Of a DNA stretch of 35,227 bases, positions 7,773 through 20,200 are shown in pieces. Every line of letters begins with the position of its first letter. Position 1 is the stretch's first letter. The notes beneath the pieces were generated by a model, which saw nothing but the letters and a program-made list of their open reading frames with translations, had not been told where the DNA came from and searched no databases. Position numbers and translations under genes: made by a program. The stretch is from Verrucomicrobiota bacterium (lineage in GTDB: Bacteria; Verrucomicrobiota; Verrucomicrobiia; Chthoniobacterales; JAFAMB01): the NCBI GenBank assembly GCA_019236675.1, contig JAFAIO010000425.1, positions 1 through 35,227 of the forward strand, read 5' to 3'.

Positions 7773-7937
7773 GGCAAAATCCTTCGTTCTCGTCCTCGTC
7801 CTCGGATATTGGTAGGGCGAAAACCTTGAATTCGCATGTTCTTCAATTCTGGCAACCACACGGAGTGGCTCAAATCCGGCGCGGACCTGGCAGTTGGAGA
7901 TGGCGACCGCTGGATGCGCCGAGATTTTCGCCCTACC
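7768..7937. repeat. GGTAGGGCGAAAA-arm palindromic element after the SDR gene
   Basis: GGTAGGGCAAAATCC at 7768-7782 and GGTAGGGCGAAAACC at 7811-7825 face the inverted copy GAGATTTTCGCCCTACC at 7921-7937. A CGTCCTCGTCCTCG word (7791-7804) sits between the two left copies, and CAAATCCGGCGCG lies in the core at 7871-7883. The arm and the core word are shared with the element at 17327-17550. The element begins inside the last codons of the SDR gene. The rest of the 7773-8119 spacer holds an AT-rich imperfect inverted repeat (about 7961-7990) and a TTGACA at 7989 with only a weak -10 match. Confidence 0.85.
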
Positions 7938-12893: not shown

Positions 12894-12899
12894 AGTATC

Positions 12900-13029
12900 A
12901 ATCGTACTCGTCCTCCAATTTGGTGGGGCGAGGCTCCCGAATCACCCGAACGTGTTCGCAAAGCGGCCGGTATTCTACCCGATGAAGAATACTGCTACAC
13001 CAAATTCGAGGACGAGGACGAGTAGGATT
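12900..13029. repeat. 130-bp palindromic element with CGTCCTCG arms, between convergent genes
   Basis: The left arm (12900-12925) reads AATCGTACTCGTCCTCC then AATTTGGTG. The right arm (12998-13029), inverted, reads AATCCTACTCGTCCTCGTCC, then TCGAATTTGGTG. They differ mainly by one extra 6-bp CGTCCT unit. Directly inside the left arm is GGGGCGAGGCTCCC, the word that forms the 21-bp arms of the 19159-19377 element, so two word families meet here. Confidence 0.85.
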
Positions 13030-13050
13030 GGCTGCCCAGCTCCACACCTC

Positions 13051-15510: not shown

Positions 15511-16467
15511 CACCCCTTCCCCTCCTGCCCTGACCAACTTCAAATTCTCCTCAACTAACTCCGTGATCTGGATGGCAAGCTCAAGCGCAGCGGTGCCTTC
15601 GTACCCCGAAACCAACGGTTGCTGGCCGCGACTCGCGCACTCAATAAAGGAGTGTAGCTCTCGTTTCAACGGTTCATCTTTCTCGATTTGAACCTTATCT
15701 CGAGTTATCTGCCCGTTCGCCAATCGAAAGATCTCACCGGCTTGGTTTTGATAGTCTAACGACAGATATGTCTGGGGTTCCGCTTGAAACACCCGGATCT
15801 TACGCATCTTTTCCGGGCTAATCCTACTTGCCGTGAGATTTGCTACGCACCCACTTTGAAAACGGATCCGGGCATTCGCGATATCTTCCGTTTTACTGAG
15901 CGCGGGTAAACCGACGGCATCGATACTCTTCACCGGCGAACGCACCAAATGCAGAATGATCTCGAGATCATGAATCATCAGATCGAGCACAACCCCAATC
16001 TCTAGACTACGGAACGGATATTGAGATAGTCGATGGACCTCAATGAATACCGGCCTTGTCAATCGCTCCTGCAGCGCGCTCATCACCGGGTTGAACCGTT
16101 CTACGTGACCGACTTGTAAAATTACCGAGCGTTCTCGCGCCAAACGCACTAATTCTTCGGCCTCTTTTGGCGTCTCGGTGATCGGTTTTTCAATTAAAAC
16201 ATGTTTGCCGGCTTCCAACAGACGGCGGCCGATCTCGAAATGTGTGTTAGTCGGCGCTGCGACCGTCGCAGCATCCACCAACGCAATGAACTCATCCAGC
16301 GAACTGGCCACGGGCACGTTATATTGACGACCGATACTCCTCGCCACATCGCTGTTGGTATCAAAAATCGCTGCGAATTTTGCTTCCTTCAGGGCAGAGC
16401 AAATTCGAGCGTGATTTCTTCCGATACTCCCGACTCCAACCACTCCGACTCGGATGGATTGACTCAT
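15499..16467 (-). CDS. Gfo/Idh/MocA oxidoreductase, probable UDP-GlcNAc 3-dehydrogenase (GnnA-like)
   Basis: A 322-residue NAD(P)-dependent oxidoreductase with the Rossmann motif VGVVGVGSIGRNHA (8-21) and the family motif HVLIEKPIT (near 88-96). LQVGHVERFNP, VVLDLMIHDLEIILHLV and DIANARIRFQSGCVANLTAS match what I recall of GnnA, which oxidises C3 of UDP-GlcNAc for 2,3-diamino lipid A. In Acidithiobacillus gnnA lies beside lpx genes, and here the gene sits between lpxB and lpxI, overlapping lpxI by four bases. The partner aminotransferase GnnB is not in the window. The exact activity is inferred. The stop codon lies in a TTTCACT repeat tract. Confidence 0.88.
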   Translation of the reverse strand: MSQSIRVGVVGVGSIGRNHARICSALKEAKFAAIFDTNSDVARSIGRQYNVPVASSLDEFIALVDAATVAAPTNTHFEIGRRLLEAGKHVLIEKPITETPKEAEELVRLARERSVILQVGHVERFNPVMSALQERLTRPVFIEVHRLSQYPFRSLEIGVVLDLMIHDLEIILHLVRSPVKSIDAVGLPALSKTEDIANARIRFQSGCVANLTASRISPEKMRKIRVFQAEPQTYLSLDYQNQAGEIFRLANGQITRDKVQIEKDEPLKRELHSFIECASRGQQPLVSGYEGTAALELAIQITELVEENLKLVRAGGEGVGEK

Positions 16468-17278
16468 TCGTCTATACCGTAAATTGTGATCTGGCTCCGA
16501 CCAGCCGCAGCCTTAACCGCTGCGCTATCAAGCAACAAAGTGCGGGCTGCTTCGATCGCGAGCATCTTAACCCCAGCTTCGGCGGCTACCTCGATCGTCT
16601 GGCACCCGATGACCGGCACGTCAAAGCGAAAATCCTGATTCGGCTTCGATACTTTCACCACCACCGCCTCTCCTTTGGCCAGGGCTCCACCCCGGCGAAT
16701 CGCTTCATTCGTACCCTCGAACGCCTCAACCGCCACGACGGTCCCATGCCGAATCACCACGGTTTGGCCAATGTCCAGCCGGCTTACCTCTTTCGCGACC
16801 CGGTACCCGTACTCTGCGTCATCAATCGCCCGTCGCTTCGGTTTAGGGCCGGCTAACCAGCCCTTACCCGCCAATGAATCTTCAAGGAATGTAGTTGCCG
16901 GCAATAGGGTGACACCGATCCTAGCCAATTCATTCGCGATTCCGCCAAAGATCGTCTCGGCGTTTCGGGTCTTTAGCCCACCCAAAGCACTAGCGCTTTC
17001 AGATCCGGTCGCAATTCGAACAGGTTCTTCGGCGCGATCTGCCCGGCCATCATCGCATGCTGAACACCTGTTCTGCTGAAATAGTTCAATAACCGGCCGA
17101 GTTGCCCAACCCGCATCCACTCGATCGAGTCAACTCCCTCCGCCATCTCCGGGCGCGTCTCCCCTTCAAATGCGGCCACATGAATCTTCTGCACCCCTCG
17201 CTCCCGAGCCGCCCGCACCACCAGCAACGGGTACATCCCATTCCCGGCAATTAATCCTAATGAAGGAGGACTCGACAT
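16464..17278 (-). pseudogene. lpxI: UDP-2,3-diacylglucosamine pyrophosphatase LpxI, split by a one-base frameshift
   Basis: LpxI hydrolyses UDP-2,3-diacylglucosamine to lipid X, the step before LpxB. Its two halves are in different frames. The N-terminal half (ATG at 17278, MSSPPSLGLIAGNGMYPLLVV) ends at LRPDLKALVLWVG with a stop at 16973. The C-terminal half resumes in the next frame as LKTRNAETIFGGIANELARI. It continues through RLDIGQTVVIRHGTVVAVEA and KPNQDFRFDVPVIGCQTIEV to 16464. One extra G in the GGG run at about 16977-16979 would restore a 271-residue LpxI of normal length. A sequencing or assembly error is at least as likely as a true mutation, since the rest is undamaged. It overlaps the GnnA-like gene by four bases. 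Confidence 0.88.
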
Positions 17279-17326
17279 GGCCAGACCGTTAGGTGAAGAC
17301 CGCGTGCAGTTCAAGGAGTTCAACCA

Positions 17327-17550
17327 GGTAGGGCGAAAATCTCGGCGCGCCCAGGACGTAGCTACTATTGGGAATCCTCCGCGCCGGATTTGAGCCACGC
17401 CGTGCCCCACCCACCGCATTGCTTAGGCCCCAAACGCCGTGTTCGCAACCATCACAATGAATGCCGACCCGCCACAGCGGCACAAATCCGGCGCGAACTA
17501 CCGCTCACAATTAGCGATGATCCTGGGCGCGCCGAGATTTTCGCCCTACC
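17327..17550. repeat. 224-bp element with perfect 30-bp inverted ends between ispE and lpxI
   Basis: The arms at 17327-17356 and 17521-17550 are exact reverse complements over 30 bp; they begin GGTAGGGCGAAAATCTCGGC and run on to CCCAGGA. An inner pair, CGCGCCGGATTTG at 17380-17392 and CAAATCCGGCGCG at 17483-17495, is exact over 13 bp. The core has no open frame worth calling. The right arm reaches into ispE and provides its TAG stop. The element is too short for a transposase and looks like a MITE or a large hairpin. Confidence 0.92.
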
Positions 17551-18367
17551 CCGGATTCAACCGGCACACCTGAACCCAAAACTTAAATCCGAAAAACAGC
17601 GAAAACCGGCCACTCACCTGCTCTCCATCGTCGACGCTCTTTACGACCGCAAACATCGTGGATCCGGACCCAGACATTAAAGCGAGTTCAGTCTCTGGTT
17701 GTTGTTCCAACCAACTCTTTATCTCGGGTAAGAGCAGATATTTCTGAAAAACCGGTTGCTCCAAATCGTTGCGCAGAAGGCCCCACTCCGTTTTTTTGGT
17801 CTGGCCTCGCTTAAGTTCGGAAGGCAACACCTTATAGGCCGAGTAAGCGGCCGCGGTTGAAACCCCAAACTCAGGCTTAATCAAAACCACCCAACGATCG
17901 TGCGGAAACTCACGCATCTCCATCTTCTCGCCGCGGCCGGTGCACCAAGCCGCGCACCGTTTCAAAAAGAACGGTACATCTGATCCCAACTGCGCGGCTA
18001 ACCTAGCCAGTTTTTCATCAGTTAGCGGGTTCTGATGTAACTGATTCAACAAAAGCAGAGCAGCGGCGGCATCACTGCTACCGCCACCTAGCCCTGCACC
18101 AATAGGGATCTGTTTTCGCAAATCAATCCGGTAAGTCGCCCTCCGATCGGTCTCTTCGTGGAATCTATCGATCGCTTTGGAAATGAGGTTGGAGCTGTCA
18201 AAGGGCAGGCTCGTAAGATTCGATTCATAGGTCATCTCACCCGACAGCTCCATTGCCAGCTCATCGTAGAGGCCGATCGGGATCATCCATGTGGCCAGCT
18301 CGTGATATCCGTCTGGCCTTTGCCCGAGCACTTCCAGTGTGAGATTTATCTTCGCTGGCGTTACCAT
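17546..18367 (-). CDS. ispE: 4-diphosphocytidyl-2-C-methyl-D-erythritol kinase
   Basis: IspE phosphorylates CDP-methylerythritol in the MEP pathway to isoprenoids, which here would feed hopanoid synthesis. The GHMP kinase fold is clear: TPAKINLTLEVLGQRPDGYHEL at the N terminus, the ATP loop IPIGAGLGGGSSDAAAAL near 87-104, and LMSGSGSTMFAVV near the C terminus. From the ATG at 18367 it is 273 residues; an ATG two codons earlier (18373) is equally possible. The C-terminal end (CRLNPG, then TAG) runs into the inverted repeat of the 17327-17550 element, whose arm contributes the stop, so the natural end may have been slightly different. Divergent from pyrF. Confidence 0.94.
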   Translation of the reverse strand: MVTPAKINLTLEVLGQRPDGYHELATWMIPIGLYDELAMELSGEMTYESNLTSLPFDSSNLISKAIDRFHEETDRRATYRIDLRKQIPIGAGLGGGSSDAAAALLLLNQLHQNPLTDEKLARLAAQLGSDVPFFLKRCAAWCTGRGEKMEMREFPHDRWVVLIKPEFGVSTAAAYSAYKVLPSELKRGQTKKTEWGLLRNDLEQPVFQKYLLLPEIKSWLEQQPETELALMSGSGSTMFAVVKSVDDGEQVSGRFSLFFGFKFWVQVCRLNPG

Positions 18368-18386
18368 CCTCATACAGACTCACCCT

Positions 18387-19091
18387 GTGGAAGAATCCGT
18401 AACAGCGAAAGATAAAATTATTGTCGCGCTCGATCTGCCCTCGGCCGACTCAGCACGCGATATGGTAAAGACCCTGGGCAACGACGTTTCTTGGTACAAG
18501 ATCGGGCTCCGACTCTTTGCTTTAGGTGGACCCGCCTTCGTCCAAGAAGTAAAAGCGTTCGGCGCGAAAATCTTCTTGGATTTAAAATTCCACGATATTC
18601 CAAACACGGTGCGATCCGCGGTTGAGTCCGCCTGCGCTCTAGGAGCTGACATGCTGACGATCCACCTCTCAGGCGGCTCCGAAATGTGTCAGGCAGCAGT
18701 AAAGGGTCGAGGCTCCAATTCCACGCTTATCCTTGGTGTGACCGTTCTAACCAGCCAAACAGAAGCAACACTTGCAGAAATCGGAATCAATCGATCGGTA
18801 ACCCAACAGGTTATCTCCTTGGCCACGCTCGCCAAAGCCAACGGCATCGCCGGCCTGATCGCGAGTCCTCTTGAGTTACAGCCGCTCCGCCAAGAATTCG
18901 GTAAATCCCTTGTGATCGTCACGCCCGGAGTCCGCCCAACCTGGTCGGAGGCGGGAGACCAAAAACGATTTGCCACCCCTTCAGAGGCTATCAAACTCGG
19001 CGCAGATTATCTCGTCATTGGCCGCCCCATCACCGCCTCTCCCGATCCCAAAGCCGCTTTCTCCCGCATCGCCTCTGAGCTTTTGCAGTAA
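18387..19091 (+). CDS. pyrF: Orotidine 5'-phosphate decarboxylase
   Basis: PyrF decarboxylates OMP to UMP, the last step of de novo pyrimidine synthesis. It belongs to the short bacterial type (234 residues from the GTG at 18387). IIVALDLPSADSA opens the barrel. SWYKIGLRLF, the catalytic FLDLKFHDIPNTV, MLTIHLSGG, VTPGVRP and DYLVIGRPIT follow in order. The ORF track start at 18339 would overlap the start of the divergent ispE gene, so I prefer GTG 18387. That leaves fewer than 20 bp between the two starts, so each promoter must lie within the other gene. The TAA stop is formed by the first unit of the AGTAATC repeat tract. Confidence 0.94.
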   Translation: MEESVTAKDKIIVALDLPSADSARDMVKTLGNDVSWYKIGLRLFALGGPAFVQEVKAFGAKIFLDLKFHDIPNTVRSAVESACALGADMLTIHLSGGSEMCQAAVKGRGSNSTLILGVTVLTSQTEATLAEIGINRSVTQQVISLATLAKANGIAGLIASPLELQPLRQEFGKSLVIVTPGVRPTWSEAGDQKRFATPSEAIKLGADYLVIGRPITASPDPKAAFSRIASELLQ

Positions 19092-19441
19092 TCAGTAATC
19101 AGTAATCAGTAGGTCAGTGATCAGTTCAGGAGCTAGGAGCTAGTAGGGGTGGGCTCATATTTGGTGGGGCGAGGCTCCCGAATGGCCAAATTGTTGTAGC
19201 GAAGTTGCCGGTGATCCTCGTTGAGCACCGTTACTACGCCATTAAACGCGCCGAGCCGTGGTCTATCGTGGGCCGCAGCTCGGCGCGTCGCTAAACCTTT
19301 CTCATTAGTCTTTCAACGTTCGTACCACTTTCCTTGGTCAAATCGTCGGGCTAGTAGGGAGCCTCGCCCCACCAAATACGGCCCCGCCCTCCTAGCTCCT
19401 AAATTCTAGCTCCTAGCTCCTAAACTGATTACTGGTTACTA
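19089..19441. repeat. Three-shell palindromic intergenic region between pyrF and an unknown gene
   Basis: The whole spacer is symmetric. Outer shell: AGTAATC heptamers at 19089-19124 against the inverted GATTACTGGTTACT at 19427-19441. Second shell: AGGAGCT heptamers at 19125-19143 against inverted TAGCTCC heptamers at about 19389-19425. Inner shell: a perfect 21-bp inverted repeat starting ATTTGGTGGGGCGAGGCTCC, at 19159-19179 and 19357-19377. The core of about 180 bp (19180-19356) has no gene I can support. Both flanking genes end within the outer shell: pyrF at TAA, and the minus-strand gene at TAG. Confidence 0.9.
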
Positions 19442-20200
19442 CAGATCCACCGCTGCCCGCCGCAGCCTTCGATACTCCTGCAACACCCGGATCGAAGAAA
19501 AAACAATCGCTGAAACTTGCTCGACCGGACCCGAACCCTCCGGCGTCCGCAGGGTCAAACCAAACATCTGTTTCGGTACCCCGCGCCCAAGCCCCCTTTG
19601 CCGGCGCAGAACCGCGCTCGGTAAAACCTTAACCGGTTCCTCTGCTAGCCGAACAAACCTCCCTGCTACCTCCAACGTTGGCCATGCCACTTCCGTCGCG
19701 ATTAATTCGCTATCGGTCTCAAATTGGAACCCACTCAGACGTTCATTCGTGGCGATGGAAACAAACCCATCCACGTCACTGCTAGCCAAATCCGACTCTA
19801 GAACTTGCAAGACGGGTTGCACCCCGGATGACTCATCCAACCAATCGTTGCCCGCGGTTTCAGCCCCATTATCACTGGGTTCACGCGTTACCGCGTATGA
19901 GAACAACGCGTAATCCCGTCCTACCAAGGGCGCCACCTCCAATTCCACCAGCAACTTCGCTAGCGCTCGTTGGGCCAAATCATCGTGCGACCGCAAACCG
20001 GCTATAAACGCCATCCGCACGGGCAAATTATTAGTCCGTTGTCCAATAAAAACGTAGCTCGATAACTTGTACTTTGAGTCAGCGCACTCCCGCCAACGAA
20101 CCAGATGCGAAGGATAAGAAGAGATACTTTCTAGGGGTTCAAACGCCGGCGCGGGCGGCCGGGAAAAATCAACTTGAGGAGGTGAAGAAGTCGACGCCAT
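19439..20200 (-). CDS. Hypothetical protein
   Basis: A 253-residue protein that I do not recognise with confidence. The start is well supported: ATG at 20200 with AGGAG seven bases upstream, an unusually clear ribosome binding site for this window, and a plausible promoter at 20246-20274. The first 25 residues are Pro/Ser-rich. Residues about 45-115 (YVFIGQRTNN, then AFIAGLRSHDDLAQRALAKL) faintly recall the layout of M14-type carboxypeptidases and succinylglutamate desuccinylases. The zinc-binding HxxE is not seen, so a peptidase role is only a weak guess. There is no signal peptide or membrane span. It stands alone, divergent from hpnH. Confidence 0.75.
   Translation of the reverse strand: MASTSSPPQVDFSRPPAPAFEPLESISSYPSHLVRWRECADSKYKLSSYVFIGQRTNNLPVRMAFIAGLRSHDDLAQRALAKLLVELEVAPLVGRDYALFSYAVTREPSDNGAETAGNDWLDESSGVQPVLQVLESDLASSDVDGFVSIATNERLSGFQFETDSELIATEVAWPTLEVAGRFVRLAEEPVKVLPSAVLRRQRGLGRGVPKQMFGLTLRTPEGSGPVEQVSAIVFSSIRVLQEYRRLRRAAVDL

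Follow-up and report, generated by a model that had tools for sequence, protein, structure and literature searches.

A GTAG-tagged hairpin dimer between ispE and lpxI, very probably a RAYT-moved REPIN of one uncultured Verrucomicrobiota genus

What is the 224-bp noncoding element with perfect inverted ends that lies between ispE and lpxI in this verrucomicrobial contig, and how does it come to hold the ispE stop codon? We addressed this in a window of 35,227 nucleotides, the whole stretch of DNA analyzed, which is the entire contig C523 of draft genome G000 (5.87 Mb in 565 contigs; 84.7% complete). The 30-bp inverted ends described in the sequence-only reading were recovered at 17327-17356 and 17521-17550 (100% complementary, 164 nt between the arms). 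The exact inner 13-bp pair was also present, as part of a 17-nt inverted pair (17380-17396 and 17479-17495; 94%). As single-stranded DNA, the 224 bases folded at -73.9 kcal/mol, compared to -36.7 ± 3.3 for shuffled sequences (z = -11.2; 0 of 200 shuffles equal). Rfam gave no match for the window or for six element copies. The perfect 30 bp consists of a 24-nt conserved box plus 6 nt from this copy's own loop. The features are as follows.

17327..17550, no strand: whole nonautonomous element, 224 bp, a REPIN-like head-to-head dimer of two GTAG-tagged hairpin arms
17327..17350, plus strand: left arm box A, GGTAG foot and 5' side of the stem, GGTAGGGCGAAAATCTCGGCGCGC
17351..17379, plus strand: left arm variable loop, 29 nt (loop identity between copies ~42%; shuffled, 34%)
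17380..17396, plus strand: left arm box B, 3' side of the stem, CGCGCCGGATTTGAGCC, 15 pairs with box A
17397..17478, no strand: variable core separating the two arms
17479..17495, minus strand: right arm box B, 1 mismatch
17496..17526, minus strand: right arm variable loop, 31 nt
17527..17550, minus strand: right arm box A, whose GGTAG holds the ispE TAG stop
17546..17548, minus strand: ispE stop codon TAG, from the element (ispE ORF, 17546-18373)
7811..7937, no strand: second, degraded family copy in the window, with a complete right arm and a truncated left arm

The arm is not unique to this locus. Genome-wide pattern searches with the first 26 nt of the end gave 105 occurrences at up to three mismatches in the same genome (reversed control, 0), and a relaxed 23-mer gave 126. 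At up to two mismatches, the counts were 119 in G000, 120 in the sister species G003, 59 in G002, and 10 in G001, where a relaxed pattern raised the number to 34. Of the 57 related genomes searched, these four, all of one genus, were the only ones to carry the end; the 53 genomes of the order outside the genus had none, and neither did the viral contigs searched. In a scan of public genome contigs, all the matches listed fell in two Verrucomicrobiota bacterium metagenome-assembled genomes matching G003 and G002. As far as we searched, the sequence data place the family within one uncultured Verrucomicrobiota genus. We collected 83 paired elements (86 once more sequence was added), mostly of 170 to 290 bp with their ends pointing outward. 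Sixty-three of 75 elements lay outside crude ORFs of at least 90 amino acids, and the remaining 12 were mostly inside short ORFs.

Paired copies revealed the full arm, which spans about 72 nt: box A (24 nt; GGTAGGGCGAAAAWCTCGGCGCGC), a variable stretch mostly of 28 to 31 nt, and box B (17 nt; CGCGCCGGWTTTGAGCC). The two boxes form a 15-bp stem around a loop of 29 to 32 nt, with GGC/GCC at the foot (3 bp), a GA/GA internal loop, AAAWC/GWTTT (5 bp), one bulged T, and CGGCGCG/CGCGCCG (7 bp). Two such arms, set head to head, are separated by a variable core of about 80 nt, giving a typical element length of 220 to 235 bp (range, 160 to 303); rarer short forms of 42 to 87 bp are made up of A and A', either alone or with one loop. 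The arms of the window copy fold as the family model predicts, with GGTAG unpaired.

We then considered whether the stem is a property of the family. In 151 arms, collected with box A as the search probe at up to five mismatches, GGTAG was conserved at 96 to 99% at each position. Cells of the stem were paired in 97.1% of cases, compared to 93.8% ± 0.3% for re-dealt arms (maximum of 1,000, 94.7%). Pair A14:B9 alone was AT in 87 arms, TA in 60, CG in 2, TG in 1, and GG in 1. As judged from the aligned copies, this covariation shows a stem kept through compensatory change. In nine elements whose arms are of different types, 17 of 18 arms paired within the arm and not across, so the structural unit is the single arm and not the inverted repeat as a whole. 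The loops and core, on the other hand, were near-random between copies.

A full-length element with the same ends was found in the sister species G001 by searching for inverted boxes spaced farther apart. At this locus (L317, which is L088:771-1523 on G001:C405), the family's arms form the ends of a 753-bp element whose one long ORF is on the minus strand. Flanking this gene in the order A-B...B'-A', they make up an inverted pair of 97 nt (79%). The product carries the motifs YVLMPDHVHF and YMDKNPVRAGLV and matches the NCBIfam model REP_Tyr_transpos (REP-associated tyrosine transposase) at 1.1e-14 (54.5 bits, below the curated cutoff of 80). All 11 RAYTs of the genus match this model, and H66, H68 (HxH), Y123 (the catalytic-type tyrosine), and NPVR are invariant in their alignment. 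A profile of the 11 proteins retrieved E. coli TnpAREP (PDB 4er8) at 9.9e-13, with IS200-type transposases well behind. Despite its score below the cutoff, the L317 product is very probably a RAYT, since the top PDB hit and every motif point the same way.

At one contig end, an A+B arm is followed about 20 bp past its box B by a second RAYT fragment (L353). No RAYT with box A/B ends was found in G000 (84.7% complete), G002, or G003. G000 holds six RAYT-like matches, and those with readable flanks bear other end families; the cognate gene of G000 may lie in the unassembled part or may have been lost. Pfam PF01797 as a probe gave 16 genes in the four genomes, none with box A within about 1.5 kb, and this model misses the cognate RAYT (16.1 bits; cutoff, 23). 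Each of the other RAYTs of the genus has a palindrome family of its own at its flanks: TTTGGTGGGGCGAGGCTCC at L319 (L318 being readable on one side only), CGGTAGGGACGAGC at L322, GGAGGGGAGCCGCTTT at L347, L349, L351, L204, and L352, GGAGGGGCGTTGC at L063, L206, and L350, and GTGGAGCGCTGCCTCGCTTGCGAGGC at L355. We also noted two box A arms 1,049 bp apart in G003 (L169:5968-7016), adjoining a GGAGCCAGAATCC array. Their 276-residue frame has repeated motifs and, by eye, looks to be of beta-propeller type and not a transposase; we read it as a nested insertion.

Based on the tag, the stem, the dimer orientation, the copy number, and the RAYT between the same ends, we are highly confident that the window element is a nonautonomous head-to-head dimer of GTAG-tagged REP hairpins (a REPIN), moved in trans by a RAYT and belonging to a genus-restricted family. 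The RAYT, an HUH/Y1 single-strand transposase, is predicted to bind each arm hairpin in single-stranded DNA and to cut at the GTAG foot. The dimer would then be copied or moved in trans as a single strand, with the tip of existing intergenic palindromes as the preferred target.

The sites occupied by the copies bear on this last step. No target-site duplication was seen at the window copy, as the sequence-only reading had stated, and over 80 elements the flanking direct repeats resembled those of shuffled pairs; a RAYT/IS200-like enzyme is expected to leave none. At about 87% of ends, GGTAG is bordered on the outside by a pyrimidine. Twenty-six of 148 ends have G[AG][TC]C as the four outside bases (2.0 expected), and 14 have GATC itself (0.6 expected), a rule from which the window copy deviates. 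The flanks of the two ends tend to be mutually complementary, with a mean of 10.6 matches per 20 nt compared to 8.6 ± 0.2 after re-dealing (a value reached in none of 500 re-dealt sets). A strong flanking palindrome was centered within 2 nt of the element in 14 of 83 copies (mean by chance, 2.5; maximum, 6), and these outer palindromes are of several unrelated types. Copies thus tend to favor the tips of older palindromes. Three REP families have also been reported inside palindromes, in A. variabilis, T. roseum, and H. neapolitanus (PMC3733652).

At the window locus, ispE (17546-18373, minus strand) ends ...CCG GGG TAG in the six-frame listing, the final GG TAG being the five bases with which the arm begins. 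The gap between ispE and lpxI is assembled in two sister species, where ispE ends elsewhere: RLNP-G* in the window corresponds to RLNP-TTKVIAER* in G003 and RLNP-EPTRIA* in G002. The proposal that the arm sets the ispE stop was therefore borne out; since the sister genes continue further, insertion of the element would have removed five to seven codons from ispE and given it a new stop. Five of 75 copies, ispE included, supply the TAG stop of an adjacent ORF (215 to 597 codons). The same gap holds different palindromic or repeat-rich DNA in G003 and G002 and unrelated nested palindromes in three more distant relatives. The element may have replaced or entered other palindromic DNA here, and it is now predicted to form a strong hairpin in any ispE-lpxI transcript. 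On the other side of the gap, lpxI is split across two frames at 16973-17120 of the window (ORFs 16464-17120 and 16973-17419). Here the window reads CCCAAAGCAC, as against CCCAAAAGCAC in G002, a one-base difference within an A run that implies either an assembly error or a real frameshift.

Other orthologous gaps also differ between sister species. The sister carries the GGTGGGGCGAGGCTCC family in L147/L248, L128/L251, and L066/L249 and another family in L129/L219, L178/L264, and L132/L130. In L209 (G002), the gap orthologous to L034/L192, a GGTGGGGCGAGGCTCC element is nested within A/A'. The sister gaps that we compared by eye always held other DNA, nearly always palindromic; no clean empty site and no transposition event was seen among them. 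It is possible, and we suggest it tentatively as somewhat short of an even chance, that the intergenic gaps of this genus serve several unrelated kinds of palindromic mobile DNA (S23-gene elements between inverted short-repeat arrays and at least five RAYT/REP families) as common docking slots. These families would nest one within another at the tips of hairpins and take each other's place from one sister species to the next, the tips being the actual target of RAYT and S23 elements. A separate observation concerns the family copy at L068:1036-1523 (G002), whose core contains a palindrome of the GGAGGGGAGCCGCTTT-type RAYT family; the copy's ortholog in G000 (L006, 189 bp) is too short to hold one.

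Some copies are inherited by both species, and they allowed us to follow the arm in place (L026/L180, L029/L158, L045/L165, L058/L094, and L087/L151). Identity was 96% in box A (biased upward, as box A served to recognize copies), 95% in box B (which in the second species played no part in recognition), 77% in the loops, 80% in the core, and 88% in the mostly coding flanks. From one species to the other, the stems show roughly one-fifth of the change seen in their own loops. The stem is therefore maintained after insertion, by selection or by conversion. The sequence-only reading had taken the identical arms to mean recent origin or active maintenance: maintenance holds, and recent origin is not needed, because the 24-nt box is about 94% identical between copies of any age.

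This slow change is a point in favor of a host-maintained, nonmobile structure (a terminator or an mRNA-processing or nucleoid-protein site) whose boxes are selected locus by locus. Such a structure would also fit a hairpin that is strong on both strands. However, the same gap in a sister species often has no copy or has other families, which argues that no locus needs the element. The expansion is restricted to one genus, a RAYT sits between the same ends, and the gene context is unremarkable (37 codirectional, 15 convergent, and 11 divergent gaps by a crude ORF call). We consider a purely host-maintained structure very unlikely. Nevertheless, the mobile-element model alone leaves the slow change of the box unexplained, and boxes changing about five times more slowly than loops indicate that a host-level or conversion process also acts on the RAYT-moved family. 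A classical MITE, i.e., a deletion derivative of a DDE transposon moved double-stranded via its terminal inverted repeats, would account for a noncoding element of ~225 bp with perfect inverted ends and many copies, and the sequence-only reading had likened the element to a MITE. The small noncoding repeat of mobile type was well seen, but the classical sense of the term fails, because the transposase is a RAYT and not of the DDE type. Target-site duplications do not exceed chance, the ends are structured hairpins that covary within the arm, and the sole transposase gene found between such ends encodes a RAYT; this origin is extremely unlikely.

The copies might also spread to hairpin tips by other means, for instance with S23/IVP four-helix-bundle proteins, the RAYT ends being coincidental. 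S23/IVP genes (PF05635; L287 to L312 in G000, G002, and G003) have inverted arrays of degenerate short tandem repeats around 22 of 22 in alignments. An inverted pair within 260 bp flanked 18 of 18 S23 genes compared to 9 of 513 control ORFs, a contrast that is overstated because the control ORFs are random frames, many within genes. The repeat units differ widely among genes; the same array types fill many intergenic gaps without a gene and form the outer layer around many element copies. However, no S23 gene was seen between boxes A and B, and the inverted pairs at the 22 genes are other repeats, which have neither the GTAG tag nor such arm covariation. The RAYTs, in contrast, bear boxes A/B and similar GTAG ends. 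Spread of this kind is very unlikely, and the element itself is not an S23/IVP intervening sequence: it is noncoding, with no S23 ORF in a hairpin loop.

The window holds further nested structures. Downstream of pyrF (19084-19443), palindromes are layered like an onion, from CAGTAATCAG arrays through GGAGCTAG arrays to a GGTGGGGCGAGGCTCC element (19160-19376); the ends of this last family occur 215 times genome-wide, and it has a RAYT of its own (L318/L319). Another GGTGGGGCGAGGCTCC end (12919) lies within inverted TCGTCCTCG arrays at 12899-13030. At 2389-2817, nested palindromes have GTGGAGCGCTGCCTCGCTTGCGAGGC and GGAGGGGAGCCGC ends, which match two other RAYT families (L355 and L347/L351/L204). 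At 560-1303, a Phd-like frame (MKTASVRELRNRYTELLKWLEAGEEITITRRG) followed by a PIN-like frame (MITCDTSFLYSLYVVDVHT) is, by eye, a probable antitoxin-toxin pair. The more surprising pattern is the nesting and exchange of several families in the gaps, together with the S23 genes between arrays; we found nothing specific in the literature on nested palindromes or S23 arrays.

With these data, a RAYT-REPIN system whose autonomous form is identified and whose hairpin is shown by covariation is placed in a verrucomicrobial genus that is uncultured. Orthologous copies between species allow the upkeep of a REPIN stem to be measured in place, which bears on the open question of why bacteria keep such repeats. 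The repeated docking in existing palindromes, with several families per gap, leads to a testable insertion rule for single-strand elements.

How does the family compare to known systems? Bacterial MITEs such as RUP, NEMIS, and ERIC share the size and the terminal inverted repeats; unlike them, the family has hairpin arms in place of simple repeats, with neither target-site duplications nor a DDE transposase that bears these ends. The GTAG REP families, including those of the verrucomicrobium Opitutus terrae (PMC3733652), likewise have a GTAG (or GTGG) tag at the stem foot, tags-outside dimers, and an association with RAYTs, and P. aeruginosa GTAG-24 also has unpaired GA in the stem (PMC3733652). 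REPs in that survey are described as 20 to 40 bp with a short loop, a description of size and not a mechanistic requirement, compared to the ~72-nt arm here; their loops are 2 to 20 bp (up to 27 bp in one Bradyrhizobium family) and their stems 5 to 13 bp, compared to a loop of ~29 to 32 nt and a stem of 15 bp (PMC3733652). The family differs from the described GTAG REPs in its large arm and loop, as set apart by descriptions and not letter by letter. The RAYT-flanking REPs of Nunvar et al. (PMC2817692), a study whose main text does not contain the word Verrucomicrobia, resemble L317 in having a RAYT gene between two inverted GTAG-tagged REPs. Closest in organization are the REPINs of Pseudomonas fluorescens (PMC3116915) and E. 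coli. In the GI REPINs of strain SBW25, two 16-mers lie 71 bp apart (PMC3116915); the dimer here reaches ~225 bp because each arm encloses a variable loop of about 30 nt. Unlike in those species, we found no box A RAYT in the window's own assembly. As in P. fluorescens and E. coli, the element is nonautonomous, with two inverted REPs, conserved ends, a less conserved spacer, and a hairpin with compensatory changes, and its cognate RAYT lies elsewhere, flanked by the same REPs.
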